A stretch of 64,000 bases of DNA from Hydractinia symbiolongicarpus (taxonomy: Eukaryota > Cnidaria > Hydrozoa > Anthoathecata > Hydractiniidae). The stretch's first letter is position 1; each line of letters opens with the position of its first letter. Below the pieces are notes generated by a model. It was not told where the DNA came from. It searched no databases and saw nothing but the letters and a program-made list of their open reading frames with translations. The DNA is taken from positions 21,489,501-21,553,500 of the forward strand of contig NC_079881.1 of the NCBI RefSeq assembly GCF_029227915.1, written 5' to 3'. Positions 1,319-64,000 of the stretch are shown piece by piece. A program made the translations under genes and the position numbers.

Positions 1319-1362
1319 CTTTTTTTTTTTTAATCTTCTAAAAAACCATTAATTTTTTTTAG

Positions 1363-2320
1363 ACTCCAAAATCAGAATTTTTGATTTGGGTAAAAAAAAG
1401 ACGCCAGTTGATGACTTTCCTAAGTCCGTCAATCTTGTGTCAGATGAATACGAACAGTTGTCTGCCGAGGGGTTAGAAGCTGCTCGTATCTGTGCTAACA
1501 AGTACATGATCAAATTTGCTGGTAAAGACTCTTTCCACATTCGTATCCGAGTCCACCCATACCATATTGTTCGCATCAATAAAATGTTGTCGTGTGCTGG
1601 AGCTGATAGGCTTCAAACTGGAATGAGAGGTGCTTTTGGTAAGCCACAAGGAACAGTAGCACGTGTGAACATAGGGCAACCTTTAATATCTATCAGATGT
1701 AAAGATGCACATGAAGCCACTGCAATTGAAGCATTGAGAAGAGCTAAGTTTAAGTTTCCAGGTCGTCAAAAGGTAATGTTAACTACAATTTTATTATCGT
1801 TTTTTTTAAATTGCAAGACAGCTAGGTGCATACATATATATAACTGAGGATAAGAATTTATTTAAAGGTGTAAATTAGTTAGGGTTAAGTTGTATATGCA
1901 AGTGACAGGGTATTGATTGATATCAAACAGATTTTGTAGATATGATGAGCTTAACACTTCAGGTCCGTGTTTTTGAATAGAATGATACTGATGAAGTTCT
2001 GATCTGCAGTTTAATGTTCCTATTTAATTTTTTTCAATGATTTACAAGTGAAGGTTTTGACTTGTACAACAAAAGTGAAACAAGTAGTGTTTCACTTACG
2101 TCTACTGAAATGATTTTGTAATATATTTATCATTTACACTATGGTAAACTTAAATTTCTAGATCTTTGTCTCCAAAAAATGGGGATTTACAAAATGGGAC
2201 CGCGAAGAATATCTTGAGCGTCGACGAGATGGGTCTATCAAACCAGACGGTACAAATGTTCAATATTACCCGAACAAAGGAAAATTGAAGGACTGGAAGT
2301 GGAGGGAGAGTCGTTGTTAA
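1363..2320 (+). CDS. RPL10: 60S ribosomal protein L10 (uL16), 3' two exons
   Basis: This protein of the large ribosomal subunit joins late in 60S assembly and helps form the tRNA-binding core. Exons are 1363-1772 and 2162-2320, with AG/GT borders and stop TAA at 2318-2320. The reading starts with the AC of a split Asp codon ([10 protein letters not shown]), runs through [36 protein letters not shown] and [14 protein letters not shown], then [13 protein letters not shown] in the last exon. The match to animal RPL10 is nearly continuous. The amino-terminal exon lies upstream of the window, so the gene is 5' partial with an intron of at least 1362 bp. The methionine at 1386 is an artefact of reading into the exon, not a start. 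Both visible introns carry snoRNAs. A poly(A) signal AATAAA is at 2346-2351. Confidence 0.96.
1936..2007 (+). ncRNA. box C/D snoRNA, U18 (SNORD18) type, copy 2
   Basis: This second U18-type snoRNA lies in the last RPL10 intron (1773-2161). Box C ATGATGA is at 1942-1948, the guide GGTCCGTGTTT at 1962-1972, D'-like TTGA at 1973-1976, C'-like ATGATA at 1982-1987 and box D CTGA at 1999-2002. The terminal stem is GTAGAT/ATCTGC with one G-U pair (1936-1941 with 2002-2007). The guide and the 3' half are nearly identical to the copy at 742, while the box C flank has diverged. This suggests intragenic duplication with the guide under constraint. Confidence 0.85.
2043..2097 (+). other. two adjacent perfect hairpins in RPL10 intron
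   Basis: TACAAGT/ACTTGTA pairs across a 10-nt loop (2043-2066). Six bases later AAGTGAAAC/GTTTCACTT pairs across a 7-nt loop (2073-2097). They lie 36 nt beyond the second U18 copy. They could be a small structured RNA or remnants of an inverted-repeat element. No family is recognised. Confidence 0.4.
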
Positions 2321-34431: not shown

Positions 34432-34736
34432 TGAGCTCACGAAGACTGCGTCGAATGCAAGAAAAGCGCAAAAATTCTTGTTTGCTCGCTTCCGGATGGA
34501 GAAGAACCCTTTCGTGTAAAGCAGGACACATTATGCATCGCCTCTTTTCAACGCAACTGGTCACTTCCGCAGACGGTGGGCATTCTAGGTGTAAATGGCG
34601 AATCAGTGGTGGAGACAAAGCGCTCGTTGCGGCACTGGCCCTTACTCTCACGACGACAACGGACACTTGTCTTAGTTCGGCTATGAATATGAAAACTGTT
34701 TAAGTGGCACAAGGGAAAGGCGAGATGGGGACCAAA

Positions 34737-34753
34737 ATGCCGTAACCACAAGC
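34737..34753 (+). promoter_or_regulatory. PSE-like element of U4 gene (recurs every 534 bp)
   Basis: ATGCCGTAACCACAAGC lies at -66 to -50 from the U4 start. It resembles the vertebrate proximal sequence element (for example ACCGTAACTTGAAAG in the human U6 gene) in sequence and position, sharing CCGTAAC and the downstream AA. No TATA box follows at -30, as expected for a Pol II snRNA gene. It is identical in every unit, so conservation within the array is not independent evidence. Confidence 0.55.
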
Positions 34754-34802
34754 AATCGATAACGTTAAAGAAGCACGCGATGGTTGCCGCTCTTGTTGGC
34801 TT

Positions 34803-34943
34803 AGCTTTGCGCAGTGGCATTACCATAGCCAATGAGGTTTAACCGAGGCGTGGTGATTGCTAATTGAAAACTTTTCCCAATATCCCGCATGACGGCGTGA
34901 AACATCGCCGGCGTTGCAATATTTGGAGGTTCCCACTGGGACC
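34803..34943 (+). ncRNA. RNU4: U4 spliceosomal snRNA, first of 55 copies
   Basis: U4 pairs with U6, keeps it inactive, and enters the spliceosome in the U4/U6.U5 tri-snRNP. The 5' end AGCTTTGCGCAGTGGCA is the stem II region. The 5' stem-loop holds the kink-turn halves CCAATGAGG and CCGAGGCG that bind the 15.5K/SNU13 protein, closed by ACCA/TGGT where human has AUCG/CGAU (a compensating change). GATTGCTAATTGAAAACTTT then TCCCAATA is the stem I and single-stranded region, nearly identical to human. A central hairpin CGGCG/CGCCG follows, then an Sm site AATATTTGG and a 3' hairpin GGTTCC/GGGACC with loop CACT. Length is about 141 nt, against about 145 in human. Numbering through nucleotide 52 matches human U4. 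The 3' end is set by the hairpin and could differ by a few bases. Confidence 0.96.
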
Positions 34944-34949
34944 ATGCCT

Positions 34950-34958
34950 AAAAATAGA
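34950..34958 (+). terminator. 3'-box-like snRNA processing signal (recurs every 534 bp)
   Basis: AAAAATAGA starts 6 nt after the inferred U4 3' end. It resembles the AAANNNAGA part of the metazoan snRNA 3' box, the Integrator-dependent 3'-end signal, at the usual distance. The GTTT half of the consensus is absent. Confidence 0.45.
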
Positions 34959-37900
34959 AATCTGCTGAGCTCACGAAGACTGCGTCGAATGCAAGAAAAG
35001 CGCAAAAATTCTTGTTTGCTCGCTTCCGGATGGAGAAGAACCCTTTCGTGTAAAGCAGGACACATTATGCATCGCCTCTTTTCAACGCAACTGGTCACTT
35101 CCGCAGACGGTGGGCATTCTAGGTGTAAATGGCGAATCAGTGGTGGAGACAAAGCGCTCGTTGCGGCACTGGCCCTTACTCTCACGACGACAACGGACAC
35201 TTGTCTTAGTTCGGCTATGAATATGAAAACTGTTTAAGTGGCACAAGGGAAAGGCGAGATGGGGACCAAAATGCCGTAACCACAAGCAATCGATAACGTT
35301 AAAGAAGCACGCGATGGTTGCCGCTCTTGTTGGCTTAGCTTTGCGCAGTGGCATTACCATAGCCAATGAGGTTTAACCGAGGCGTGGTGATTGCTAATTG
35401 AAAACTTTTCCCAATATCCCGCATGACGGCGTGAAACATCGCCGGCGTTGCAATATTTGGAGGTTCCCACTGGGACCATGCCTAAAAATAGAAATCTGCT
35501 GAGCTCACGAAGACTGCGTCGAATGCAAGAAAAGCGCAAAAATTCTTGTTTGCTCGCTTCCGGATGGAGAAGAACCCTTTCGTGTAAAGCAGGACACATT
35601 ATGCATCGCCTCTTTTCAACGCAACTGGTCACTTCCGCAGACGGTGGGCATTCTAGGTGTAAATGGCGAATCAGTGGTGGAGACAAAGCGCTCGTTGCGG
35701 CACTGGCCCTTACTCTCACGACGACAACGGACACTTGTCTTAGTTCGGCTATGAATATGAAAACTGTTTAAGTGGCACAAGGGAAAGGCGAGATGGGGAC
35801 CAAAATGCCGTAACCACAAGCAATCGATAACGTTAAAGAAGCACGCGATGGTTGCCGCTCTTGTTGGCTTAGCTTTGCGCAGTGGCATTACCATAGCCAA
35901 TGAGGTTTAACCGAGGCGTGGTGATTGCTAATTGAAAACTTTTCCCAATATCCCGCATGACGGCGTGAAACATCGCCGGCGTTGCAATATTTGGAGGTTC
36001 CCACTGGGACCATGCCTAAAAATAGAAATCTGCTGAGCTCACGAAGACTGCGTCGAATGCAAGAAAAGCGCAAAAATTCTTGTTTGCTCGCTTCCGGATG
36101 GAGAAGAACCCTTTCGTGTAAAGCAGGACACATTATGCATCGCCTCTTTTCAACGCAACTGGTCACTTCCGCAGACGGTGGGCATTCTAGGTGTAAATGG
36201 CGAATCAGTGGTGGAGACAAAGCGCTCGTTGCGGCACTGGCCCTTACTCTCACGACGACAACGGACACTTGTCTTAGTTCGGCTATGAATATGAAAACTG
36301 TTTAAGTGGCACAAGGGAAAGGCGAGATGGGGACCAAAATGCCGTAACCACAAGCAATCGATAACGTTAAAGAAGCACGCGATGGTTGCCGCTCTTGTTG
36401 GCTTAGCTTTGCGCAGTGGCATTACCATAGCCAATGAGGTTTAACCGAGGCGTGGTGATTGCTAATTGAAAACTTTTCCCAATATCCCGCATGACGGCGT
36501 GAAACATCGCCGGCGTTGCAATATTTGGAGGTTCCCACTGGGACCATGCCTAAAAATAGAAATCTGCTGAGCTCACGAAGACTGCGTCGAATGCAAGAAA
36601 AGCGCAAAAATTCTTGTTTGCTCGCTTCCGGATGGAGAAGAACCCTTTCGTGTAAAGCAGGACACATTATGCATCGCCTCTTTTCAACGCAACTGGTCAC
36701 TTCCGCAGACGGTGGGCATTCTAGGTGTAAATGGCGAATCAGTGGTGGAGACAAAGCGCTCGTTGCGGCACTGGCCCTTACTCTCACGACGACAACGGAC
36801 ACTTGTCTTAGTTCGGCTATGAATATGAAAACTGTTTAAGTGGCACAAGGGAAAGGCGAGATGGGGACCAAAATGCCGTAACCACAAGCAATCGATAACG
36901 TTAAAGAAGCACGCGATGGTTGCCGCTCTTGTTGGCTTAGCTTTGCGCAGTGGCATTACCATAGCCAATGAGGTTTAACCGAGGCGTGGTGATTGCTAAT
37001 TGAAAACTTTTCCCAATATCCCGCATGACGGCGTGAAACATCGCCGGCGTTGCAATATTTGGAGGTTCCCACTGGGACCATGCCTAAAAATAGAAATCTG
37101 CTGAGCTCACGAAGACTGCGTCGAATGCAAGAAAAGCGCAAAAATTCTTGTTTGCTCGCTTCCGGATGGAGAAGAACCCTTTCGTGTAAAGCAGGACACA
37201 TTATGCATCGCCTCTTTTCAACGCAACTGGTCACTTCCGCAGACGGTGGGCATTCTAGGTGTAAATGGCGAATCAGTGGTGGAGACAAAGCGCTCGTTGC
37301 GGCACTGGCCCTTACTCTCACGACGACAACGGACACTTGTCTTAGTTCGGCTATGAATATGAAAACTGTTTAAGTGGCACAAGGGAAAGGCGAGATGGGG
37401 ACCAAAATGCCGTAACCACAAGCAATCGATAACGTTAAAGAAGCACGCGATGGTTGCCGCTCTTGTTGGCTTAGCTTTGCGCAGTGGCATTACCATAGCC
37501 AATGAGGTTTAACCGAGGCGTGGTGATTGCTAATTGAAAACTTTTCCCAATATCCCGCATGACGGCGTGAAACATCGCCGGCGTTGCAATATTTGGAGGT
37601 TCCCACTGGGACCATGCCTAAAAATAGAAATCTGCTGAGCTCACGAAGACTGCGTCGAATGCAAGAAAAGCGCAAAAATTCTTGTTTGCTCGCTTCCGGA
37701 TGGAGAAGAACCCTTTCGTGTAAAGCAGGACACATTATGCATCGCCTCTTTTCAACGCAACTGGTCACTTCCGCAGACGGTGGGCATTCTAGGTGTAAAT
37801 GGCGAATCAGTGGTGGAGACAAAGCGCTCGTTGCGGCACTGGCCCTTACTCTCACGACGACAACGGACACTTGTCTTAGTTCGGCTATGAATATGAAAAC

Positions 37901-40900
37901 TGTTTAAGTGGCACAAGGGAAAGGCGAGATGGGGACCAAAATGCCGTAACCACAAGCAATCGATAACGTTAAAGAAGCACGCGATGGTTGCCGCTCTTGT
38001 TGGCTTAGCTTTGCGCAGTGGCATTACCATAGCCAATGAGGTTTAACCGAGGCGTGGTGATTGCTAATTGAAAACTTTTCCCAATATCCCGCATGACGGC
38101 GTGAAACATCGCCGGCGTTGCAATATTTGGAGGTTCCCACTGGGACCATGCCTAAAAATAGAAATCTGCTGAGCTCACGAAGACTGCGTCGAATGCAAGA
38201 AAAGCGCAAAAATTCTTGTTTGCTCGCTTCCGGATGGAGAAGAACCCTTTCGTGTAAAGCAGGACACATTATGCATCGCCTCTTTTCAACGCAACTGGTC
38301 ACTTCCGCAGACGGTGGGCATTCTAGGTGTAAATGGCGAATCAGTGGTGGAGACAAAGCGCTCGTTGCGGCACTGGCCCTTACTCTCACGACGACAACGG
38401 ACACTTGTCTTAGTTCGGCTATGAATATGAAAACTGTTTAAGTGGCACAAGGGAAAGGCGAGATGGGGACCAAAATGCCGTAACCACAAGCAATCGATAA
38501 CGTTAAAGAAGCACGCGATGGTTGCCGCTCTTGTTGGCTTAGCTTTGCGCAGTGGCATTACCATAGCCAATGAGGTTTAACCGAGGCGTGGTGATTGCTA
38601 ATTGAAAACTTTTCCCAATATCCCGCATGACGGCGTGAAACATCGCCGGCGTTGCAATATTTGGAGGTTCCCACTGGGACCATGCCTAAAAATAGAAATC
38701 TGCTGAGCTCACGAAGACTGCGTCGAATGCAAGAAAAGCGCAAAAATTCTTGTTTGCTCGCTTCCGGATGGAGAAGAACCCTTTCGTGTAAAGCAGGACA
38801 CATTATGCATCGCCTCTTTTCAACGCAACTGGTCACTTCCGCAGACGGTGGGCATTCTAGGTGTAAATGGCGAATCAGTGGTGGAGACAAAGCGCTCGTT
38901 GCGGCACTGGCCCTTACTCTCACGACGACAACGGACACTTGTCTTAGTTCGGCTATGAATATGAAAACTGTTTAAGTGGCACAAGGGAAAGGCGAGATGG
39001 GGACCAAAATGCCGTAACCACAAGCAATCGATAACGTTAAAGAAGCACGCGATGGTTGCCGCTCTTGTTGGCTTAGCTTTGCGCAGTGGCATTACCATAG
39101 CCAATGAGGTTTAACCGAGGCGTGGTGATTGCTAATTGAAAACTTTTCCCAATATCCCGCATGACGGCGTGAAACATCGCCGGCGTTGCAATATTTGGAG
39201 GTTCCCACTGGGACCATGCCTAAAAATAGAAATCTGCTGAGCTCACGAAGACTGCGTCGAATGCAAGAAAAGCGCAAAAATTCTTGTTTGCTCGCTTCCG
39301 GATGGAGAAGAACCCTTTCGTGTAAAGCAGGACACATTATGCATCGCCTCTTTTCAACGCAACTGGTCACTTCCGCAGACGGTGGGCATTCTAGGTGTAA
39401 ATGGCGAATCAGTGGTGGAGACAAAGCGCTCGTTGCGGCACTGGCCCTTACTCTCACGACGACAACGGACACTTGTCTTAGTTCGGCTATGAATATGAAA
39501 ACTGTTTAAGTGGCACAAGGGAAAGGCGAGATGGGGACCAAAATGCCGTAACCACAAGCAATCGATAACGTTAAAGAAGCACGCGATGGTTGCCGCTCTT
39601 GTTGGCTTAGCTTTGCGCAGTGGCATTACCATAGCCAATGAGGTTTAACCGAGGCGTGGTGATTGCTAATTGAAAACTTTTCCCAATATCCCGCATGACG
39701 GCGTGAAACATCGCCGGCGTTGCAATATTTGGAGGTTCCCACTGGGACCATGCCTAAAAATAGAAATCTGCTGAGCTCACGAAGACTGCGTCGAATGCAA
39801 GAAAAGCGCAAAAATTCTTGTTTGCTCGCTTCCGGATGGAGAAGAACCCTTTCGTGTAAAGCAGGACACATTATGCATCGCCTCTTTTCAACGCAACTGG
39901 TCACTTCCGCAGACGGTGGGCATTCTAGGTGTAAATGGCGAATCAGTGGTGGAGACAAAGCGCTCGTTGCGGCACTGGCCCTTACTCTCACGACGACAAC
40001 GGACACTTGTCTTAGTTCGGCTATGAATATGAAAACTGTTTAAGTGGCACAAGGGAAAGGCGAGATGGGGACCAAAATGCCGTAACCACAAGCAATCGAT
40101 AACGTTAAAGAAGCACGCGATGGTTGCCGCTCTTGTTGGCTTAGCTTTGCGCAGTGGCATTACCATAGCCAATGAGGTTTAACCGAGGCGTGGTGATTGC
40201 TAATTGAAAACTTTTCCCAATATCCCGCATGACGGCGTGAAACATCGCCGGCGTTGCAATATTTGGAGGTTCCCACTGGGACCATGCCTAAAAATAGAAA
40301 TCTGCTGAGCTCACGAAGACTGCGTCGAATGCAAGAAAAGCGCAAAAATTCTTGTTTGCTCGCTTCCGGATGGAGAAGAACCCTTTCGTGTAAAGCAGGA
40401 CACATTATGCATCGCCTCTTTTCAACGCAACTGGTCACTTCCGCAGACGGTGGGCATTCTAGGTGTAAATGGCGAATCAGTGGTGGAGACAAAGCGCTCG
40501 TTGCGGCACTGGCCCTTACTCTCACGACGACAACGGACACTTGTCTTAGTTCGGCTATGAATATGAAAACTGTTTAAGTGGCACAAGGGAAAGGCGAGAT
40601 GGGGACCAAAATGCCGTAACCACAAGCAATCGATAACGTTAAAGAAGCACGCGATGGTTGCCGCTCTTGTTGGCTTAGCTTTGCGCAGTGGCATTACCAT
40701 AGCCAATGAGGTTTAACCGAGGCGTGGTGATTGCTAATTGAAAACTTTTCCCAATATCCCGCATGACGGCGTGAAACATCGCCGGCGTTGCAATATTTGG
40801 AGGTTCCCACTGGGACCATGCCTAAAAATAGAAATCTGCTGAGCTCACGAAGACTGCGTCGAATGCAAGAAAAGCGCAAAAATTCTTGTTTGCTCGCTTC

Positions 40901-43346
40901 CGGATGGAGAAGAACCCTTTCGTGTAAAGCAGGACACATTATGCATCGCCTCTTTTCAACGCAACTGGTCACTTCCGCAGACGGTGGGCATTCTAGGTGT
41001 AAATGGCGAATCAGTGGTGGAGACAAAGCGCTCGTTGCGGCACTGGCCCTTACTCTCACGACGACAACGGACACTTGTCTTAGTTCGGCTATGAATATGA
41101 AAACTGTTTAAGTGGCACAAGGGAAAGGCGAGATGGGGACCAAAATGCCGTAACCACAAGCAATCGATAACGTTAAAGAAGCACGCGATGGTTGCCGCTC
41201 TTGTTGGCTTAGCTTTGCGCAGTGGCATTACCATAGCCAATGAGGTTTAACCGAGGCGTGGTGATTGCTAATTGAAAACTTTTCCCAATATCCCGCATGA
41301 CGGCGTGAAACATCGCCGGCGTTGCAATATTTGGAGGTTCCCACTGGGACCATGCCTAAAAATAGAAATCTGCTGAGCTCACGAAGACTGCGTCGAATGC
41401 AAGAAAAGCGCAAAAATTCTTGTTTGCTCGCTTCCGGATGGAGAAGAACCCTTTCGTGTAAAGCAGGACACATTATGCATCGCCTCTTTTCAACGCAACT
41501 GGTCACTTCCGCAGACGGTGGGCATTCTAGGTGTAAATGGCGAATCAGTGGTGGAGACAAAGCGCTCGTTGCGGCACTGGCCCTTACTCTCACGACGACA
41601 ACGGACACTTGTCTTAGTTCGGCTATGAATATGAAAACTGTTTAAGTGGCACAAGGGAAAGGCGAGATGGGGACCAAAATGCCGTAACCACAAGCAATCG
41701 ATAACGTTAAAGAAGCACGCGATGGTTGCCGCTCTTGTTGGCTTAGCTTTGCGCAGTGGCATTACCATAGCCAATGAGGTTTAACCGAGGCGTGGTGATT
41801 GCTAATTGAAAACTTTTCCCAATATCCCGCATGACGGCGTGAAACATCGCCGGCGTTGCAATATTTGGAGGTTCCCACTGGGACCATGCCTAAAAATAGA
41901 AATCTGCTGAGCTCACGAAGACTGCGTCGAATGCAAGAAAAGCGCAAAAATTCTTGTTTGCTCGCTTCCGGATGGAGAAGAACCCTTTCGTGTAAAGCAG
42001 GACACATTATGCATCGCCTCTTTTCAACGCAACTGGTCACTTCCGCAGACGGTGGGCATTCTAGGTGTAAATGGCGAATCAGTGGTGGAGACAAAGCGCT
42101 CGTTGCGGCACTGGCCCTTACTCTCACGACGACAACGGACACTTGTCTTAGTTCGGCTATGAATATGAAAACTGTTTAAGTGGCACAAGGGAAAGGCGAG
42201 ATGGGGACCAAAATGCCGTAACCACAAGCAATCGATAACGTTAAAGAAGCACGCGATGGTTGCCGCTCTTGTTGGCTTAGCTTTGCGCAGTGGCATTACC
42301 ATAGCCAATGAGGTTTAACCGAGGCGTGGTGATTGCTAATTGAAAACTTTTCCCAATATCCCGCATGACGGCGTGAAACATCGCCGGCGTTGCAATATTT
42401 GGAGGTTCCCACTGGGACCATGCCTAAAAATAGAAATCTGCTGAGCTCACGAAGACTGCGTCGAATGCAAGAAAAGCGCAAAAATTCTTGTTTGCTCGCT
42501 TCCGGATGGAGAAGAACCCTTTCGTGTAAAGCAGGACACATTATGCATCGCCTCTTTTCAACGCAACTGGTCACTTCCGCAGACGGTGGGCATTCTAGGT
42601 GTAAATGGCGAATCAGTGGTGGAGACAAAGCGCTCGTTGCGGCACTGGCCCTTACTCTCACGACGACAACGGACACTTGTCTTAGTTCGGCTATGAATAT
42701 GAAAACTGTTTAAGTGGCACAAGGGAAAGGCGAGATGGGGACCAAAATGCCGTAACCACAAGCAATCGATAACGTTAAAGAAGCACGCGATGGTTGCCGC
42801 TCTTGTTGGCTTAGCTTTGCGCAGTGGCATTACCATAGCCAATGAGGTTTAACCGAGGCGTGGTGATTGCTAATTGAAAACTTTTCCCAATATCCCGCAT
42901 GACGGCGTGAAACATCGCCGGCGTTGCAATATTTGGAGGTTCCCACTGGGACCATGCCTAAAAATAGAAATCTGCTGAGCTCACGAAGACTGCGTCGAAT
43001 GCAAGAAAAGCGCAAAAATTCTTGTTTGCTCGCTTCCGGATGGAGAAGAACCCTTTCGTGTAAAGCAGGACACATTATGCATCGCCTCTTTTCAACGCAA
43101 CTGGTCACTTCCGCAGACGGTGGGCATTCTAGGTGTAAATGGCGAATCAGTGGTGGAGACAAAGCGCTCGTTGCGGCACTGGCCCTTACTCTCACGACGA
43201 CAACGGACACTTGTCTTAGTTCGGCTATGAATATGAAAACTGTTTAAGTGGCACAAGGGAAAGGCGAGATGGGGACCAAAATGCCGTAACCACAAGCAAT
43301 CGATAACGTTAAAGAAGCACGCGATGGTTGCCGCTCTTGTTGGCTT

Positions 43347-43487
43347 AGCTTTGCGCAGTGGCATTACCATAGCCAATGAGGTTTAACCGACGCGTGGTGA
43401 TTGCTAATTGAAAACTTTTCCCAATATCCCGCATGACGGCGTGAAACATCGCCGGCGTTGCAATATTTGGAGGTTCCCACTGGGACC
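43347..43487 (+). ncRNA. RNU4: U4 snRNA, 17th copy, G45C kink-turn variant
   Basis: It is identical to the other copies except at 43391, where U4 nucleotide 45 is C instead of G (CCGACGCG). In human U4, nucleotide 45 pairs with C28 next to the two sheared G-A pairs of the kink-turn. The change would put C opposite C there and should weaken 15.5K/SNU13 binding. This copy may be a hypomorph or pseudogene within the array. Confidence 0.9.
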
Positions 43488-46400
43488 ATGCCTAAAAATA
43501 GAAATCTGCTGAGCTCACGAAGACTGCGTCGAATGCAAGAAAAGCGCAAAAATTCTTGTTTGCTCGCTTCCGGATGGAGAAGAACCCTTTCGTGTAAAGC
43601 AGGACACATTATGCATCGCCTCTTTTCAACGCAACTGGTCACTTCCGCAGACGGTGGGCATTCTAGGTGTAAATGGCGAATCAGTGGTGGAGACAAAGCG
43701 CTCGTTGCGGCACTGGCCCTTACTCTCACGACGACAACGGACACTTGTCTTAGTTCGGCTATGAATATGAAAACTGTTTAAGTGGCACAAGGGAAAGGCG
43801 AGATGGGGACCAAAATGCCGTAACCACAAGCAATCGATAACGTTAAAGAAGCACGCGATGGTTGCCGCTCTTGTTGGCTTAGCTTTGCGCAGTGGCATTA
43901 CCATAGCCAATGAGGTTTAACCGAGGCGTGGTGATTGCTAATTGAAAACTTTTCCCAATATCCCGCATGACGGCGTGAAACATCGCCGGCGTTGCAATAT
44001 TTGGAGGTTCCCACTGGGACCATGCCTAAAAATAGAAATCTGCTGAGCTCACGAAGACTGCGTCGAATGCAAGAAAAGCGCAAAAATTCTTGTTTGCTCG
44101 CTTCCGGATGGAGAAGAACCCTTTCGTGTAAAGCAGGACACATTATGCATCGCCTCTTTTCAACGCAACTGGTCACTTCCGCAGACGGTGGGCATTCTAG
44201 GTGTAAATGGCGAATCAGTGGTGGAGACAAAGCGCTCGTTGCGGCACTGGCCCTTACTCTCACGACGACAACGGACACTTGTCTTAGTTCGGCTATGAAT
44301 ATGAAAACTGTTTAAGTGGCACAAGGGAAAGGCGAGATGGGGACCAAAATGCCGTAACCACAAGCAATCGATAACGTTAAAGAAGCACGCGATGGTTGCC
44401 GCTCTTGTTGGCTTAGCTTTGCGCAGTGGCATTACCATAGCCAATGAGGTTTAACCGAGGCGTGGTGATTGCTAATTGAAAACTTTTCCCAATATCCCGC
44501 ATGACGGCGTGAAACATCGCCGGCGTTGCAATATTTGGAGGTTCCCACTGGGACCATGCCTAAAAATAGAAATCTGCTGAGCTCACGAAGACTGCGTCGA
44601 ATGCAAGAAAAGCGCAAAAATTCTTGTTTGCTCGCTTCCGGATGGAGAAGAACCCTTTCGTGTAAAGCAGGACACATTATGCATCGCCTCTTTTCAACGC
44701 AACTGGTCACTTCCGCAGACGGTGGGCATTCTAGGTGTAAATGGCGAATCAGTGGTGGAGACAAAGCGCTCGTTGCGGCACTGGCCCTTACTCTCACGAC
44801 GACAACGGACACTTGTCTTAGTTCGGCTATGAATATGAAAACTGTTTAAGTGGCACAAGGGAAAGGCGAGATGGGGACCAAAATGCCGTAACCACAAGCA
44901 ATCGATAACGTTAAAGAAGCACGCGATGGTTGCCGCTCTTGTTGGCTTAGCTTTGCGCAGTGGCATTACCATAGCCAATGAGGTTTAACCGAGGCGTGGT
45001 GATTGCTAATTGAAAACTTTTCCCAATATCCCGCATGACGGCGTGAAACATCGCCGGCGTTGCAATATTTGGAGGTTCCCACTGGGACCATGCCTAAAAA
45101 TAGAAATCTGCTGAGCTCACGAAGACTGCGTCGAATGCAAGAAAAGCGCAAAAATTCTTGTTTGCTCGCTTCCGGATGGAGAAGAACCCTTTCGTGTAAA
45201 GCAGGACACATTATGCATCGCCTCTTTTCAACGCAACTGGTCACTTCCGCAGACGGTGGGCATTCTAGGTGTAAATGGCGAATCAGTGGTGGAGACAAAG
45301 CGCTCGTTGCGGCACTGGCCCTTACTCTCACGACGACAACGGACACTTGTCTTAGTTCGGCTATGAATATGAAAACTGTTTAAGTGGCACAAGGGAAAGG
45401 CGAGATGGGGACCAAAATGCCGTAACCACAAGCAATCGATAACGTTAAAGAAGCACGCGATGGTTGCCGCTCTTGTTGGCTTAGCTTTGCGCAGTGGCAT
45501 TACCATAGCCAATGAGGTTTAACCGAGGCGTGGTGATTGCTAATTGAAAACTTTTCCCAATATCCCGCATGACGGCGTGAAACATCGCCGGCGTTGCAAT
45601 ATTTGGAGGTTCCCACTGGGACCATGCCTAAAAATAGAAATCTGCTGAGCTCACGAAGACTGCGTCGAATGCAAGAAAAGCGCAAAAATTCTTGTTTGCT
45701 CGCTTCCGGATGGAGAAGAACCCTTTCGTGTAAAGCAGGACACATTATGCATCGCCTCTTTTCAACGCAACTGGTCACTTCCGCAGACGGTGGGCATTCT
45801 AGGTGTAAATGGCGAATCAGTGGTGGAGACAAAGCGCTCGTTGCGGCACTGGCCCTTACTCTCACGACGACAACGGACACTTGTCTTAGTTCGGCTATGA
45901 ATATGAAAACTGTTTAAGTGGCACAAGGGAAAGGCGAGATGGGGACCAAAATGCCGTAACCACAAGCAATCGATAACGTTAAAGAAGCACGCGATGGTTG
46001 CCGCTCTTGTTGGCTTAGCTTTGCGCAGTGGCATTACCATAGCCAATGAGGTTTAACCGAGGCGTGGTGATTGCTAATTGAAAACTTTTCCCAATATCCC
46101 GCATGACGGCGTGAAACATCGCCGGCGTTGCAATATTTGGAGGTTCCCACTGGGACCATGCCTAAAAATAGAAATCTGCTGAGCTCACGAAGACTGCGTC
46201 GAATGCAAGAAAAGCGCAAAAATTCTTGTTTGCTCGCTTCCGGATGGAGAAGAACCCTTTTGTGTAAAGCAGGACACATTATGCATCGCCTCTTTTCAAC
46301 GCAACTGGTCACTTCCGCAGACGGTGGGCATTCTAGGTGTAAATGGCGAATCAGTGGTGGAGACAAAGCGCTCGTTGCGGCACTGGCCCTTACTCTCACG

Positions 46401-52400: not shown

Positions 52401-55400
52401 GATGGTTGCCGCTCTTGTTGGCTTAGCTTTGCGCAGTGGCATTACCATAGCCAATGAGGTTTAACCGAGGCGTGGTGATTGCTAATTGAAAACTTTTCCC
52501 AATATCCCGCATGACGGCGTGAAACATCGCCGGCGTTGCAATATTTGGAGGTTCCCACTGGGACCATGCCTAAAAATAGAAATCTGCTGAGCTCACGAAG
52601 ACTGCGTCGAATGCAAGAAAAGCGCAAAAATTCTTGTTTGCTCGCTTCCGGATGGAGAAGAACCCTTTCGTGTAAAGCAGGACACATTATGCATCGCCTC
52701 TTTTCAACGCAACTGGTCACTTCCGCAGACGGTGGGCATTCTAGGTGTAAATGGCGAATCAGTGGTGGAGACAAAGCGCTCGTTGCGGCACTGGCCCTTA
52801 CTCTCACGACGACAACGGACACTTGTCTTAGTTCGGCTATGAATATGAAAACTGTTTAAGTGGCACAAGGGAAAGGCGAGATGGGGACCAAAATGCCGTA
52901 ACCACAAGCAATCGATAACGTTAAAGAAGCACGCGATGGTTGCCGCTCTTGTTGGCTTAGCTTTGCGCAGTGGCATTACCATAGCCAATGAGGTTTAACC
53001 GAGGCGTGGTGATTGCTAATTGAAAACTTTTCCCAATATCCCGCATGACGGCGTGAAACATCGCCGGCGTTGCAATATTTGGAGGTTCCCACTGGGACCA
53101 TGCCTAAAAATAGAAATCTGCTGAGCTCACGAAGACTGCGTCGAATGCAAGAAAAGCGCAAAAATTCTTGTTTGCTCGCTTCCGGATGGAGAAGAACCCT
53201 TTCGTGTAAAGCAGGACACATTATGCATCGCCTCTTTTCAACGCAACTGGTCACTTCCGCAGACGGTGGGCATTCTAGGTGTAAATGGCGAATCAGTGGT
53301 GGAGACAAAGCGCTCGTTGCGGCACTGGCCCTTACTCTCACGACGACAACGGACACTTGTCTTAGTTCGGCTATGAATATGAAAACTGTTTAAGTGGCAC
53401 AAGGGAAAGGCGAGATGGGGACCAAAATGCCGTAACCACAAGCAATCGATAACGTTAAAGAAGCACGCGATGGTTGCCGCTCTTGTTGGCTTAGCTTTGC
53501 GCAGTGGCATTACCATAGCCAATGAGGTTTAACCGAGGCGTGGTGATTGCTAATTGAAAACTTTTCCCAATATCCCGCATGACGGCGTGAAACATCGCCG
53601 GCGTTGCAATATTTGGAGGTTCCCACTGGGACCATGCCTAAAAATAGAAATCTGCTGAGCTCACGAAGACTGCGTCGAATGCAAGAAAAGCGCAAAAATT
53701 CTTGTTTGCTCGCTTCCGGATGGAGAAGAACCCTTTCGTGTAAAGCAGGACACATTATGCATCGCCTCTTTTCAACGCAACTGGTCACTTCCGCAGACGG
53801 TGGGCATTCTAGGTGTAAATGGCGAATCAGTGGTGGAGACAAAGCGCTCGTTGCGGCACTGGCCCTTACTCTCACGACGACAACGGACACTTGTCTTAGT
53901 TCGGCTATGAATATGAAAACTGTTTAAGTGGCACAAGGGAAAGGCGAGATGGGGACCAAAATGCCGTAACCACAAGCAATCGATAACGTTAAAGAAGCAC
54001 GCGATGGTTGCCGCTCTTGTTGGCTTAGCTTTGCGCAGTGGCATTACCATAGCCAATGAGGTTTAACCGAGGCGTGGTGATTGCTAATTGAAAACTTTTC
54101 CCAATATCCCGCATGACGGCGTGAAACATCGCCGGCGTTGCAATATTTGGAGGTTCCCACTGGGACCATGCCTAAAAATAGAAATCTGCTGAGCTCACGA
54201 AGACTGCGTCGAATGCAAGAAAAGCGCAAAAATTCTTGTTTGCTCGCTTCCGGATGGAGAAGAACCCTTTCGTGTAAAGCAGGACACATTATGCATCGCC
54301 TCTTTTCAACGCAACTGGTCACTTCCGCAGACGGTGGGCATTCTAGGTGTAAATGGCGAATCAGTGGTGGAGACAAAGCGCTCGTTGCGGCACTGGCCCT
54401 TACTCTCACGACGACAACGGACACTTGTCTTAGTTCGGCTATGAATATGAAAACTGTTTAAGTGGCACAAGGGAAAGGCGAGATGGGGACCAAAATGCCG
54501 TAACCACAAGCAATCGATAACGTTAAAGAAGCACGCGATGGTTGCCGCTCTTGTTGGCTTAGCTTTGCGCAGTGGCATTACCATAGCCAATGAGGTTTAA
54601 CCGAGGCGTGGTGATTGCTAATTGAAAACTTTTCCCAATATCCCGCATGACGGCGTGAAACATCGCCGGCGTTGCAATATTTGGAGGTTCCCACTGGGAC
54701 CATGCCTAAAAATAGAAATCTGCTGAGCTCACGAAGACTGCGTCGAATGCAAGAAAAGCGCAAAAAGTCTTGTTTGCTCGCTTCCGGATGGAGAAGAACC
54801 CTTTCGTGTAAAGCAGGACACATTATGCATCGCCTCTTTTCAACGCAACTGGTCACTTCCGCAGACGGTGGGCATTCTAGGTGTAAATGGCGAATCAGTG
54901 GTGGAGACAAAGCGCTCGTTGCGGCACTGGCCCTTACTCTCACGACGACAACGGACACTTGTCTTAGTTCGGCTATGAATATGAAAACTGTTTAAGTGGC
55001 ACAAGGGAAAGGCGAGATGGGGACCAAAATGCCGTAACCACAAGCAATCGATAACGTTAAAGAAGCACGCGATGGTTGCCGCTCTTGTTGGCTTAGCTTT
55101 GCGCAGTGGCATTACCATAGCCAATGAGGTTTAACCGAGGCGTGGTGATTGCTAATTGAAAACTTTTCCCAATATCCCGCATGACGGCGTGAAACATCGC
55201 CGGCGTTGCAATATTTGGAGGTTCCCACTGGGACCATGCCTAAAAATAGAAATCTGCTGAGCTCACGAAGACTGCGTCGAATGCAAGAAAAGCGCAAAAA
55301 TTCTTGTTTGCTCGCTTCCGGATGGAGAAGAACCCTTTCGTGTAAAGCAGGACACATTATGCATCGCCTCTTTTCAACGCAACTGGTCACTTCCGCAGAC

Positions 55401-58400
55401 GGTGGGCATTCTAGGTGTAAATGGCGAATCAGTGGTGGAGACAAAGCGCTCGTTGCGGCACTGGCCCTTACTCTCACGACGACAACGGACACTTGTCTTA
55501 GTTCGGCTATGAATATGAAAACTGTTTAAGTGGCACAAGGGAAAGGCGAGATGGGGACCAAAATGCCGTAACCACAAGCAATCGATAACGTTAAAGAAGC
55601 ACGCGATGGTTGCCGCTCTTGTTGGCTTAGCTTTGCGCAGTGGCATTACCATAGCCAATGAGGTTTAACCGAGGCGTGGTGATTGCTAATTGAAAACTTT
55701 TCCCAATATCCCGCATGACGGCGTGAAACATCGCCGGCGTTGCAATATTTGGAGGTTCCCACTGGGACCATGCCTAAAAATAGAAATCTGCTGAGCTCAC
55801 GAAGACTGCGTCGAATGCAAGAAAAGCGCAAAAATTCTTGTTTGCTCGCTTCCGGATGGAGAAGAACCCTTTCGTGTAAAGCAGGACACATTATGCATCG
55901 CCTCTTTTCAACGCAACTGGTCACTTCCGCAGACGGTGGGCATTCTAGGTGTAAATGGCGAATCAGTGGTGGAGACAAAGCGCTCGTTGCGGCACTGGCC
56001 CTTACTCTCACGACGACAACGGACACTTGTCTTAGTTCGGCTATGAATATGAAAACTGTTTAAGTGGCACAAGGGAAAGGCGAGATGGGGACCAAAATGC
56101 CGTAACCACAAGCAATCGATAACGTTAAAGAAGCACGCGATGGTTGCCGCTCTTGTTGGCTTAGCTTTGCGCAGTGGCATTACCATAGCCAATGAGGTTT
56201 AACCGAGGCGTGGTGATTGCTAATTGAAAACTTTTCCCAATATCCCGCATGACGGCGTGAAACATCGCCGGCGTTGCAATATTTGGAGGTTCCCACTGGG
56301 ACCATGCCTAAAAATAGAAATCTGCTGAGCTCACGAAGACTGCGTCGAATGCAAGAAAAGCGCAAAAATTCTTGTTTGCTCGCTTCCGGATGGAGAAGAA
56401 CCCTTTCGTGTAAAGCAGGACACATTATGCATCGCCTCTTTTCAACGCAACTGGTCACTTCCGCAGACGGTGGGCATTCTAGGTGTAAATGGCGAATCAG
56501 TGGTGGAGACAAAGCGCTCGTTGCGGCACTGGCCCTTACTCTCACGACGACAACGGACACTTGTCTTAGTTCGGCTATGAATATGAAAACTGTTTAAGTG
56601 GCACAAGGGAAAGGCGAGATGGGGACCAAAATGCCGTAACCACAAGCAATCGATAACGTTAAAGAAGCACGCGATGGTTGCCGCTCTTGTTGGCTTAGCT
56701 TTGCGCAGTGGCATTACCATAGCCAATGAGGTTTAACCGAGGCGTGGTGATTGCTAATTGAAAACTTTTCCCAATATCCCGCATGACGGCGTGAAACATC
56801 GCCGGCGTTGCAATATTTGGAGGTTCCCACTGGGACCATGCCTAAAAATAGAAATCTGCTGAGCTCACGAAGACTGCGTCGAATGCAAGAAAAGCGCAAA
56901 AATTCTTGTTTGCTCGCTTCCGGATGGAGAAGAACCCTTTCGTGTAAAGCAGGACACATTATGCATCGCCTCTTTTCAACGCAACTGGTCACTTCCGCAG
57001 ACGGTGGGCATTCTAGGTGTAAATGGCGAATCAGTGGTGGAGACAAAGCGCTCGTTGCGGCACTGGCCCTTACTCTCACGACGACAACGGACACTTGTCT
57101 TAGTTCGGCTATGAATATGAAAACTGTTTAAGTGGCACAAGGGAAAGGCGAGATGGGGACCAAAATGCCGTAACCACAAGCAATCGATAACGTTAAAGAA
57201 GCACGCGATGGTTGCCGCTCTTGTTGGCTTAGCTTTGCGCAGTGGCATTACCATAGCCAATGAGGTTTAACCGAGGCGTGGTGATTGCTAATTGAAAACT
57301 TTTCCCAATATCCCGCATGACGGCGTGAAACATCGCCGGCGTTGCAATATTTGGAGGTTCCCACTGGGACCATGCCTAAAAATAGAAATCTGCTGAGCTC
57401 ACGAAGACTGCGTCGAATGCAAGAAAAGCGCAAAAATTCTTGTTTGCTCGCTTCCGGATGGAGAAGAACCCTTTCGTGTAAAGCAGGACACATTATGCAT
57501 CGCCTCTTTTCAACGCAACTGGTCACTTCCGCAGACGGTGGGCATTCTAGGTGTAAATGGCGAATCAGTGGTGGAGACAAAGCGCTCGTTGCGGCACTGG
57601 CCCTTACTCTCACGACGACAACGGACACTTGTCTTAGTTCGGCTATGAATATGAAAACTGTTTAAGTGGCACAAGGGAAAGGCGAGATGGGGACCAAAAT
57701 GCCGTAACCACAAGCAATCGATAACGTTAAAGAAGCACGCGATGGTTGCCGCTCTTGTTGGCTTAGCTTTGCGCAGTGGCATTACCATAGCCAATGAGGT
57801 TTAACCGAGGCGTGGTGATTGCTAATTGAAAACTTTTCCCAATATCCCGCATGACGGCGTGAAACATCGCCGGCGTTGCAATATTTGGAGGTTCCCACTG
57901 GGACCATGCCTAAAAATAGAAATCTGCTGAGCTCACGAAGACTGCGTCGAATGCAAGAAAAGCGCAAAAATTCTTGTTTGCTAGCTTCCGGATGGAGAAG
58001 AACCCTTTCGTGTAAAGCAGGACACATTATGCATCGCCTCTTTTCAACGCAACTGGTCACTTCCGCAGACGGTGGGCATTCTAGGTGTAAATGGCGAATC
58101 AGTGGTGGAGACAAAGCGCTCGTTGCGGCACTGGCCCTTACTCTCACGACGACAACGGACACTTGTCTTAGTTCGGCTATGAATATGAAAACTGTTTAAG
58201 TGGCACAAGGGAAAGGCGAGATGGGGACCAAAATGCCGTAACCACAAGCAATCGATAACGTTAAAGAAGCACGCGATGGTTGCCGCTCTTGTTGGCTTAG
58301 CTTTGCGCAGTGGCATTACCATAGCCAATGAGGTTTAACCGAGGCGTGGTGATTGCTAATTGAAAACTTTTCCCAATATCCCGCATGACGGCGTGAAACA

Positions 58401-60968
58401 TCGCCGGCGTTGCAATATTTGGAGGTTCCCACTGGGACCATGCCTAAAAATAGAAATCTGCTGAGCTCACGAAGACTGCGTCGAATGCAAGAAAAGCGCA
58501 AAAATTCTTGTTTGCTCGCTTCCGGATGGAGAAGAACCCTTTCGTGTAAAGCAGGACACATTATGCATCGCCTCTTTTCAACGCAACTGGTCACTTCCGC
58601 AGACGGTGGGCATTCTAGGTGTAAATGGCGAATCAGTGGTGGAGACAAAGCGCTCGTTGCGGCACTGGCCCTTACTCTCACGACGACAACGGACACTTGT
58701 CTTAGTTCGGCTATGAATATGAAAACTGTTTAAGTGGCACAAGGGAAAGGCGAGATGGGGACCAAAATGCCGTAACCACAAGCAATCGATAACGTTAAAG
58801 AAGCACGCGATGGTTGCCGCTCTTGTTGGCTTAGCTTTGCGCAGTGGCATTACCATAGCCAATGAGGTTTAACCGAGGCGTGGTGATTGCTAATTGAAAA
58901 CTTTTCCCAATATCCCGCATGACGGCGTGAAACATCGCCGGCGTTGCAATATTTGGAGGTTCCCACTGGGACCATGCCTAAAAATAGAAATCTGCTGAGC
59001 TCACGAAGACTGCGTCGAATGCAAGAAAAGCGCAAAAATTCTTGTTTGCTCGCTTCCGGATGGAGAAGAACCCTTTCGTGTAAAGCAGGACACATTATGC
59101 ATCGCCTCTTTTCAACGCAACTGGTCACTTCCGCAGACGGTGGGCATTCTAGGTGTAAATGGCGAATCAGTGGTGGAGACAAAGCGCTCGTTGCGGCACT
59201 GGCCCTTACTCTCACGACGACAACGGACACTTGTCTTAGTTCGGCTATGAATATGAAAACTGTTTAAGTGGCACAAGGGAAAGGCGAGATGGGGACCAAA
59301 ATGCCGTAACCACAAGCAATCGATAACGTTAAAGAAGCACGCGATGGTTGCCGCTCTTGTTGGCTTAGCTTTGCGCAGTGGCATTACCATAGCCAATGAG
59401 GTTTAACCGAGGCGTGGTGATTGCTAATTGAAAACTTTTCCCAATATCCCGCATGACGGCGTGAAACATCGCCGGCGTTGCAATATTTGGAGGTTCCCAC
59501 TGGGACCATGCCTAAAAATAGAAATCTGCTGAGCTCACGAAGACTGCGTCGAATGCAAGAAAAGCGCAAAAATTCTTGTTTGCTCGCTTCCGAATGGAGA
59601 AGAACCCTTTCGTGTAAAGCAGGACACATTATGCATCGCCTCTTTTCAACGCAACTGGTCACTTCCGCAGACGGTGGGCATTCTAGGTGTAAATGGCGAA
59701 TCAGTGGTGGAGACAAAGCGCTCGTTGCGGCACTGGCCCTTACTCTCACGACGACAACGGACACTTGTCTTAGTTCGGCTATGAATATGAAAACTGTTTA
59801 AGTGGCACAAGGGAAAGGCGAGATGGGGACCAAAATGCCGTAACCACAAGCAATCGATAACGTTAAAGAAGCACGCGATGGTTGCCGCTCTTGTTGGCTT
59901 AGCTTTGCGCAGTGGCATTACCATAGCCAATGAGGTTTAACCGAGGCGTGGTGATTGCTAATTGAAAACTTTTCCCAATATCCCGCATGACGGCGTGAAA
60001 CATCGCCGGCGTTGCAATATTTGGAGGTTCCCACTGGGACCATGCCTAAAAATAGAAATCTGCTGAGCTCACGAAGACTGCGTCGAATGCAAGAAAAGCG
60101 CAAAAATTCTTGTTTGCTCGCTTCCGGATGGAGAAGAACCCTTTCGTGTAAAGCAGGACACATTATGCATCGCCTCTTTTCAACGCAACTGGTCACTTCC
60201 GCAGACGGTGGGCATTCTAGGTGTAAATGGCGAATCAGTGGTGGAGACAAAGCGCTCGTTGCGGCACTGGCCCTTACTCTCACGACGACAACGGACACTT
60301 GTCTTAGTTCGGCTATGAATATGAAAACTGTTTAAGTGGCACAAGGGAAAGGCGAGATGGGGACCAAAATGCCGTAACCACAAGCAATCGATAACGTTAA
60401 AGAAGCACGCGATGGTTGCCGCTCTTGTTGGCTTAGCTTTGCGCAGTGGCATTACCATAGCCAATGAGGTTTAACCGAGGCGTGGTGATTGCTAATTGAA
60501 AACTTTTCCCAATATCCCGCATGACGGCGTGAAACATCGCCGGCGTTGCAATATTTGGAGGTTCCCACTGGGACCATGCCTAAAAATAGAAATCTGCTGA
60601 GCTCACGAAGACTGCGTCGAATGCAAGAAAAGCGCAAAAATTCTTGTTTGCTCGCTTCCGGATGGAGAAGAACCCTTTCGTGTAAAGCAGGACACATTAT
60701 GCATCGCCTCTTTTCAACGCAACTGGTCACTTCCGCAGACGGTGGGCATTCTAGGTGTAAATGGCGAATCAGTGGTGGAGACAAAGCGCTCGTTGCGGCA
60801 CTGGCCCTTACTCTCACGACGACAACGGACACTTGTCTTAGTTCGGCTATGAATATGAAAACTGTTTAAGTGGCACAAGGGAAAGGCGAGATGGGGACCA
60901 AAATGCCGTAACCACAAGCAATCGATAACGTTAAAGAAGCACGCGATGGTTGCCGCTCTTGTTGGCTT

Positions 60969-61109
60969 AGCTTTGCGCAGTGGCATTACCATAGCCAATG
61001 AGGTTTAACCAAGGCGTGGTGATTGCTAATTGAAAACTTTTCCCAATATCCCGCATGACGGCGTGAAACATCGCCGGCGTTGCAATATTTGGAGGTTCCC
61101 ACTGGGACC
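60969..61109 (+). ncRNA. RNU4: U4 snRNA, 50th copy, G43A kink-turn variant
   Basis: The only visible change is at 61011, where nucleotide 43 is A instead of G (CCAAGGCG). G43 forms a sheared pair with A33 at the heart of the kink-turn, so an A-A mismatch is expected. Everything else, including the PSE-like element and 3' box, is intact. Confidence 0.9.
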
Positions 61110-63638
61110 ATGCCTAAAAATAGAAATCTGCTGAGCTCACGAAGACTGCGTCGAATGCAAGAAAAGCGCAAAAATTCTTGTTTGCTCGCTTCCGGATGGA
61201 GAAGAACCCTTTCGTGTAAAGCAGGACACATTATGCATCGCCTCTTTTCAACGCAACTGGTCACTTCCGCAGACGGTGGGCATTCTAGGTGTAAATGGCG
61301 AATCAGTGGTGGAGACAAAGCGCTCGTTGCGGCACTGGCCCTTACTCTCACGACGACAACGGACACTTGTCTTAGTTCGGCTATGAATATGAAAACTGTT
61401 TAAGTGGCACAAGGGAAAGGCGAGATGGGGACCAAAATGCCGTAACCACAAGCAATCGATAACGTTAAAGAAGCACGCGATGGTTGCCGCTCTTGTTGGC
61501 TTAGCTTTGCGCAGTGGCATTACCATAGCCAATGAGGTTTAACCGAGGCGTGGTGATTGCTAATTGAAAACTTTTCCCAATATCCCGCATGACGGCGTGA
61601 AACATCGCCGGCGTTGCAATATTTGGAGGTTCCCACTGGGACCATGCCTAAAAATAGAAATCTGCTGAGCTCACGAAGACTGCGTCGAATGCAAGAAAAG
61701 CGCAAAAATTCTTGTTTGCTCGCTTCCGGATGGAGAAGAACCCTTTCGTGTAAAGCAGGACACATTATGCATCGCCTCTTTTCAACGCAACTGGTCACTT
61801 CCGCAGACGGTGGGCATTCTAGGTGTAAATGGCGAATCAGTGGTGGAGACAAAGCGCTCGTTGCGGCACTGGCCCTTACTCTCACGACGACAACGGACAC
61901 TTGTCTTAGTTCGGCTATGAATATGAAAACTGTTTAAGTGGCACAAGGGAAAGGCGAGATGGGGACCAAAATGCCGTAACCACAAGCAATCGATAACGTT
62001 AAAGAAGCACGCGATGGTTGCCGCTCTTGTTGGCTTAGCTTTGCGCAGTGGCATTACCATAGCCAATGAGGTTTAACCGAGGCGTGGTGATTGCTAATTG
62101 AAAACTTTTCCCAATATCCCGCATGACGGCGTGAAACATCGCCGGCGTTGCAATATTTGGAGGTTCCCACTGGGACCATGCCTAAAAATAGAAATCTGCT
62201 GAGCTCACGAAGACTGCGTCGAATGCAAGAAAAGCGCAAAAATTCTTGTTTGCTCGCTTCCGGATGGAGAAGAACCCTTTCGTGTAAAGCAGGACACATT
62301 ATGCATCGCCTCTTTTCAACGCAACTGGTCACTTCCGCAGACGGTGGGCATTCTAGGTGTAAATGGCGAATCAGTGGTGGAGACAAAGCGCTCGTTGCGG
62401 CACTGGCCCTTACTCTCACGACGACAACGGACACTTGTCTTAGTTCGGCTATGAATATGAAAACTGTTTAAGTGGCACAAGGGAAAGGCGAGATGGGGAC
62501 CAAAATGCCGTAACCACAAGCAATCGATAACGTTAAAGAAGCACGCGATGGTTGCCGCTCTTGTTGGCTTAGCTTTGCGCAGTGGCATTACCATAGCCAA
62601 TGAGGTTTAACCGAGGCGTGGTGATTGCTAATTGAAAACTTTTCCCAATATCCCGCATGACGGCGTGAAACATCGCCGGCGTTGCAATATTTGGAGGTTC
62701 CCACTGGGACCATGCCTAAAAATAGAAATCTGCTGAGCTCACGAAGACTGCGTCGAATGCAAGAAAAGCGCAAAAATTCTTGTTTGCTCGCTTCCGGATG
62801 GAGAAGAACCCTTTCGTGTAAAGCAGGACACATTATGCATCGCCTCTTTTCAACGCAACTGGTCACTTCCGCAGACGGTGGGCATTCTAGGTGTAAATGG
62901 CGAATCAGTGGTGGAGACAAAGCGCTCGTTGCGGCACTGGCCCTTACTCTCACGACGACAACGGACACTTGTCTTAGTTCGGCTATGAATATGAAAACTG
63001 TTTAAGTGGCACAAGGGAAAGGCGAGATGGGGACCAAAATGCCGTAACCACAAGCAATCGATAACGTTAAAGAAGCACGCGATGGTTGCCGCTCTTGTTG
63101 GCTTAGCTTTGCGCAGTGGCATTACCATAGCCAATGAGGTTTAACCGAGGCGTGGTGATTGCTAATTGAAAACTTTTCCCAATATCCCGCATGACGGCGT
63201 GAAACATCGCCGGCGTTGCAATATTTGGAGGTTCCCACTGGGACCATGCCTAAAAATAGAAATCTGCTGAGCTCACGAAGACTGCGTCGAATGCAAGAAA
63301 AGCGCAAAAATTCTTGTTTGCTCGCTTCCGGATGGAGAAGAACCCTTTCGTGTAAAGCAGGACACATTATGCATCGCCTCTTTTCAACGCAACTGGTCAC
63401 TTCCGCAGACGGTGGGCATTCTAGGTGTAAATGGCGAATCAGTGGTGGAGACAAAGCGCTCGTTGCGGCACTGGCCCTTACTCTCACGACGACAACGGAC
63501 ACTTGTCTTAGTTCGGCTATGAATATGAAAACTGTTTAAGTGGCACAAGGGAAAGGCGAGATGGGGACCAAAATGCCGTAACCACAAGCAATCGATAACG
63601 TTAAAGAAGCACGCGATGGTTGCCGCTCTTGTTGGCTT

Positions 63639-63779
63639 AGCTTTGCGCAGTGGCATTACCATAGCCAATGAGGTTTAACCGAGGCGTGGTGATTGCTAAT
63701 TGAAAACTTTTCCCAATATCCCGCATGACGGCGTGAAACATCGCCGGCGTTGCAATATTTGGAGGTTCCCACTGGGACC
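63639..63779 (+). ncRNA. RNU4: U4 snRNA, last complete copy in the window (55th)
   Basis: Full-length and identical to the first copy. The window ends 221 bp later inside the next spacer, in which 63919 is T instead of C. Confidence 0.95.
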
Positions 63780-64000
63780 ATGCCTAAAAATAGAAATCTG
63801 CTGAGCTCACGAAGACTGCGTCGAATGCAAGAAAAGCGCAAAAATTCTTGTTTGCTCGCTTCCGGATGGAGAAGAACCCTTTCGTGTAAAGCAGGACACA
63901 TTATGCATCGCCTCTTTTTAACGCAACTGGTCACTTCCGCAGACGGTGGGCATTCTAGGTGTAAATGGCGAATCAGTGGTGGAGACAAAGCGCTCGTTGC

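Follow-up and report, generated by a model that had tools for sequence, protein, structure and literature searches.

A 64,000-nucleotide stretch of the Hydractinia symbiolongicarpus genome (hereafter the window, C7:21,489,501-21,553,500 of the 480.9-Mb assembly) ends in near-identical 534-bp repeats, in each of which a U4 snRNA can be recognised. This raises the questions of whether the locus is a working array of U4 genes and how its many copies are kept alike. Tandem organisation of snRNA genes is familiar from human RNU2. For Hydractinia, the accessible text of Schnitzler et al. 2024 (PMC11067881) describes ncRNA genes in tandem arrays of tens to hundreds of copies; U1, U2, U5 and U6, not U4, are named there among the arrays common to both Hydractinia genomes, and rRNA, U3 and tRNA gene arrays are likewise described in H. 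symbiolongicarpus, whose assembly in that work comprises 406 Mb in 4,840 scaffolds.

The repeat unit and its U4 gene

The Rfam U4 model (RF00015) gave 55 matches in the window, all on the plus strand between 34803 and 63777 and spaced at exactly 534 bp. Fifty-three copies score 120.4 bits, one 116.1 and one 113.2 against a cut-off of 46, each thus more than twice the cut-off, and all 55 alignments span model positions 1-138. The first-pass annotation had placed at least 55 U4 genes on this unit; the model bears this out in number, strand and spacing and failed for none of the copies. The units lie head-to-tail, are near-identical and each hold a whole U4 gene, as in a tandem snRNA gene array. 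Across the 29.6 kb in the window (54 whole units and a 362-bp tail) we found seven substitutions relative to the consensus, each confined to a single copy, and no indels. The left edge of the array is abrupt. It falls at unit position 164 in a numbering that starts at the U4 5' end, and the array therefore opens with 371 bp of an incomplete unit that lacks U4. GC content is 49-50% in the U4 unit, compared with 33% in the flank.

Sequence features of the U4 gene are largely as expected. The kink-turn of the 5' stem-loop, the binding site of 15.5K/SNU13, reads CCAAUGAGG...CCGAGG in agreement with the Rfam consensus, its predicted fold is as expected, and it is altered in the window copies at 43347 and 60969. 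The stem I and stem II sequences that pair with U6 align to the Rfam consensus without gaps. The Sm-like site is AAUAUUUGG in the consensus of either array described below, as it is in a variant found towards the old end of the first. This deviates from the Rfam consensus AAUUUUUGG; the form that we used as the standard for an Sm site is AAUUUUUG(G/A). The consensus also has the 3' stem-loop and a terminal hairpin. Each unit holds a complete U4 gene, as the first-pass annotation had described, and its Sm site is atypical.

The core of the snRNA 3' box is AAARNNAGA, and AAAAATAGA, a few bases 3' of U4, matches it exactly. When a 3' box was sought anywhere in the spacer, the best score was reached by 60 of 300 shuffled sequences. 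Promoter motifs fared similarly, the best scores in the unit being reached by 38 (ZNF143/Staf), 298 (octamer), 90 (PSE) and 285 (TATA) of 300 shuffles; these motifs and the 3' box were tested in their consensus forms.

Three other readings of the repeat and its flank were rejected. A composite unit, in which 5S, a second snRNA or some other known RNA would accompany U4, was discarded, as no further Rfam family matched at E<=5 in 1.9 kb taken from the start of the array. A coding repeat was likewise dismissed: with the unit taken as circular, its longest open frame has 137 codons, within the range of resampled units (median 106, 95th percentile 170 in 500 resamplings), and a scan of two frames from the first unit gave no Pfam match, so the 'recurring proteins' suggested by translation, against which the first-pass annotation had cautioned, look incidental. 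Relics of the spacer in the left flank were rejected on blastn E values of 0.79 for the best match and 5.7 for a 20-base match next to the edge.

Further into the left part of the window, two SNORD18 snoRNAs (742-811 and 1937-2006) flank an exon of uL16/RPL10 and are apparently intronic; in vertebrates, SNORD18 is located in RPL4.

Table 1. Features of the U4 array and its surroundings, in window positions unless stated otherwise
Feature	Position	Strand	Remarks
uL16 (RPL10) exon	1356-1769		100% identical over 99% of its length to H. symbiolongicarpus protein
Left part of U4 array 1, 534-bp head-to-tail unit	34432..64000	+	C7:21,523,932 onward
Truncated first unit, without U4	34432..34802	+	Spacer side only (unit positions 164-534)
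First complete U4 snRNA gene	34803..34943	+	Rfam match 34803-34941; last two bases finish the terminal hairpin
Parts of the first U4 gene: 5' stem-loop with kink-turn, 3' stem-loop, Sm-like site AATATTTGG, terminal hairpin			Rfam alignment and predicted folds
AAAAATAGA, fits 3'-box core exactly	34950..34958	+	Unit positions 148-156
U4 copy with G45C in the kink-turn stem	43347..43487	+	113.2 bits
U4 copy with G43A in the kink-turn	60969..61109	+	116.1 bits
Last complete U4 gene of the window	63639..63779	+	Unit continues past the window end
Distinct complete U4 copies	865-1002 and 2466-2603 of the array-1 end piece		3' stem-loop predicted more stable

Two arrays on one chromosome and their known relatives

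As the first-pass annotation had proposed, the array runs off the end of the window: it continues for 236 kb, and its right boundary, which was to be found in the neighbouring sequence, lies at C7:21,789,889. This array (array 1, plus strand, C7:21,523,932-21,789,889) measures about 266 kb and comprises about 498 units, with one diverged fragment behind its end. We read it to C7:21,753,500 and again in an end piece, the interval 21,753,501-21,785,600 being sampled by three 600-base probes, and counted 430 U4 starts in the read part and eight U4 in the end piece. A second array (array 2) lies on the minus strand at C7:33,010,620-33,204,352, inverted relative to array 1. It spans about 194 kb, of which 33.3 of 193.7 kb were sampled, and holds about 357 units, an estimate that leaves out one retrotransposon insertion; it adjoins a 500-N assembly gap at 33,204,352. 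The two arrays together hold an estimated 855 or so U4 units, taking the unread parts to be continuous. The array as first described is thus confirmed in the assembly, and its size had been understated: the full length is some nine times greater, and C7 carries a sister array as well. C7 itself starts with CCCTAA telomere repeats.

U4 loci elsewhere in the genome were the other matter raised by the first-pass annotation, and the search brought up array 2. Forty-two of 32,923 first-look candidates were scored, and all 42 lie on C7 within the two arrays, one group on the plus strand at 21.52-21.74 Mb and the other on the minus strand at 33.02-33.10 Mb; given the share of candidates scored, there may still be U4 loci elsewhere. 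Patterns of the U4 core had no match in viral and prokaryotic contig collections, which is unsurprising for such collections.

Array 2 carries a non-LTR retrotransposon (RVT_1 domain, A-rich tail) at C7:33,079,492-33,082,470. It lies antisense to one U4 gene, right where that gene begins, and next to it some 80 bp of the U4 5' part are duplicated; being the one insertion in the stretches read, it gives no evidence that the element targets U4. Beyond the 500-N gap lies an array of tRNA genes (C7:33,204,897-33,209,904, spacing about 617 bp), which ARAGORN assigns mostly to Met, Gln, Val and Val.

The first-pass annotation knew of no pure U4 array of this size. U4 is indeed the one major spliceosomal RNA absent from the published statement on Hydractinia snRNA arrays, as far as its text is accessible, but the arrays already described there, of U1, U2, U5, U6, rRNA, U3 and tRNA genes (PMC11067881), weaken the claim of novelty. 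Those arrays likewise consist of evenly spaced near-identical genes, in the same genus, and the published list covers arrays found in both genomes, so that a U4 array of a single species may be in its tables. Elsewhere in Cnidaria, the part of the Acropora study available (PMC8167085) also reports a tandem snRNA repeat, but one that mixes U1, U2 and 5S, whereas the Hydractinia arrays contain U4 alone. The U1 and U2 arrays of Xenopus, as given in the accessible portion of PMC10361878, amount to about 11-40 copies per chromosome by BLAST, as against about 498 and 357 U4 units here. In fish, chromosome mapping handles U4 genes as a repeated family, and no sequenced pure U4 array figures in the cited text: Ancistrus is reported not to have its U4 confined to single sites, with reference to U4 copies that are defective or transposed (PMC10532334, in part), and mapping of U4 snDNA in Parodontidae appears as a title cited in PMC11468460 and PMC12923391. 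Among the matches listed in our literature search, which extended to few subscription papers, there was no U4-only tandem array. We therefore regard the U4 array as an extension of the snRNA arrays known in Hydractinia, the less expected part being the one-sided gradient described below. With one long gapless array and a second that is partly sampled, concerted evolution can be read here unit by unit.

Variation among units and its polarity

To compare units of array 1 we used 415 of the 429 units; the last 36 kb of the array lie outside these counts, and the 14 units left out comprise 13 of 533 or 535 bp and an artefactual one at the end of the read stretch. U4 positions 1-141 equal the consensus in 313 of the 415. 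Variable sites are about as frequent in U4 (58 of 143) as in the spacer (144 of 391; p 0.48), and in the array-2 sample 15 of 60 distinct substitutions fall in U4, where 27% would be expected (p 0.88, indels left out). As U4 varies as much as the spacer, single copies are not visibly protected, and their likeness seems to be maintained by exchange among copies rather than by selection on each. The consensus units of the two arrays differ at six spacer sites and nowhere in U4; if all sites were equal, the chance that none of the six falls in U4 is about 0.15. The distinct variants lean towards AT, with 115 changes from GC to AT and 67 from AT to GC. If the consensus represents the ancestral state, this bias corresponds to an equilibrium GC of about 36%, lower than the 49% of the unit.

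Some of this variation touches positions that matter in human U4. Using the sensitive regions of human RNU4-2 given in the available part of PMC13253345, we found 38 of 415 array-1 units altered at or near such positions, a set that is roughly mapped from human, includes 71-74 and places its Sm part some two bases off the Sm-like site of the Hydractinia U4. The same source lists n.45G>C among the recessive-disease variants of RNU4-2, and G45C in the window is the same change. G45C occurs in two and G43A in seven of the 415 units. Since about 855 copies include a few with a kink-turn change that is associated with human disease, the question of which copies are used can be addressed by sequencing.

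The arrays bear the marks of concerted evolution, with array-specific spacer alleles and, in array 1, variants shared in blocks. Thus 418C, 457G and 492C are each carried by 14 to 16 of the 17 array-2 pieces but by none of the 415 array-1 units. Rare variants of array 1 recur in runs of neighbouring units, for example 148-150, 210-212, 226-228, 240-242 and 245-247, and 192 of 646 pairs of units that share a variant lie within 20 units of each other; 200 random placements gave 87 such pairs on average and 116 at most. Such multi-unit blocks are of the kind that unequal exchange or block duplication would be expected to leave.

Divergence is distributed one-sidedly, lowest at the upstream and highest at the downstream end of both arrays. 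When array 1 is divided into bins of 42 units, the mean pairwise differences per unit climb from 0.14 in the leftmost bin to 4.89 in the rightmost, with one step down, and in the read part position correlates with unit divergence (Spearman 0.65) and with the differences between neighbours (0.63). The left end is occupied by 227G, 522C and 532C and the right end mostly by 227A, 522T and 532G; the latter are also the alleles of array 2, which makes those of the left end look derived. Array 2 shows a trend of -0.70 on plus-strand coordinates in 20 sampled pieces, with a p value of 0.0006 that takes neighbouring pieces as independent. It is uneven, the leftmost pieces being divergent (one at 16.0 differences per unit) and the middle nearly flat. 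The last five pieces on the right, and one piece of the flat middle, show zero differences, and all 16 whole units before the gap are identical. Array 2 becomes uniform rightward, which is upstream of its minus-strand genes, so its polarity relative to transcription is that of array 1; agreement between two arrays would arise by accident with even chance, and the array-2 end concerned sits at an assembly gap.

In the usual picture the edges of an array are its most divergent parts. We tentatively suggest, as a possibility to which we would give rather long odds, that the arrays are fed from the upstream, promoter-side edge, where new units would arise, and that homogenised units age as they move towards the downstream edge, on a conveyor oriented by transcription. 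Such a conveyor, if it does operate, would keep the active genes young and leave decaying copies at the tail. Were this so, concerted evolution would be directional here, unlike the usual picture. The one-sided age gradient offers a testable case of directional array turnover.

A probable working gene array and its alternatives

We consider it probable, judging from sequence, that the locus is a working array of several hundred U4 genes whose copies are kept alike by exchange and can be spared singly. Many units would be transcribed, most likely by RNA polymerase II as in other animal U4 genes, and would supply U4 to the spliceosome; copies so numerous would each be individually dispensable, and unequal exchange or block amplification would maintain the common consensus, the quickest turnover being at the upstream edge and units growing older towards the downstream one.

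The main rival is a satellite derived from U4: tandem DNA, selfish or neutral, would have spread from a single U4 locus, the majority of units would be silent, and the working U4 genes would be small in number or lie elsewhere. It could accommodate the free variation of U4 positions in both arrays, the atypical Sm-like site of the consensus forms seen and promoter motif scores that do not exceed chance, and the genomic setting is favourable to it: in the accessible text of PMC11067881, the share of the assembly made up by tandem repeats is 18.7% in H. echinata and 15.7% in H. symbiolongicarpus, and RNA gene arrays account for only 4.8% and 7.7% of these repeats, respectively. What it explains poorly is that the consensus U4 is complete in both arrays, that all 42 genome matches scored, out of 32,923 candidates, fall inside them and that complete U4 persists at the old end. 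A distinct U4, present in two identical copies close to the downstream end of array 1, scores 121.6 bits, above the main type, and it is this variant that has the more stable predicted 3' stem-loop. On balance we think a satellite unlikely.

Still less probable is that the assembler inflated the copy number or the homogeneous left block. The left 9 kb of array 1 is variant-free, the longest variant-free stretches of the window measure about 8.5-9 kb, and array 2 stops at the 500-N gap behind identical units, all of which would suit such an artefact. However, 229.6 kb of array 1 contain no N at all, the variants form a mosaic with shared blocks that is not obviously the product of looping over one stretch, and none of the variant-free stretches of the window reaches 13.2 kb, the N50 of the HiFi reads behind a published chromosome-level H. 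symbiolongicarpus assembly (PMC10411563, in its available part) that probably underlies the one analysed here. An assembly artefact is therefore unlikely as far as the existence of the array is concerned, and possible for the exact counts and for the edge of array 2.

For U6, the partner of U4 in the spliceosome, a search of the same genome in which 48 of 42,524 candidates were scored produced no convincing gene. It yielded four matches, one of them above the cut-off (47.5 bits). The other three lie on three different contigs and, as judged by eye, consist of a U6 3' end adjoining tRNA-like sequence, an arrangement that resembles a composite SINE.
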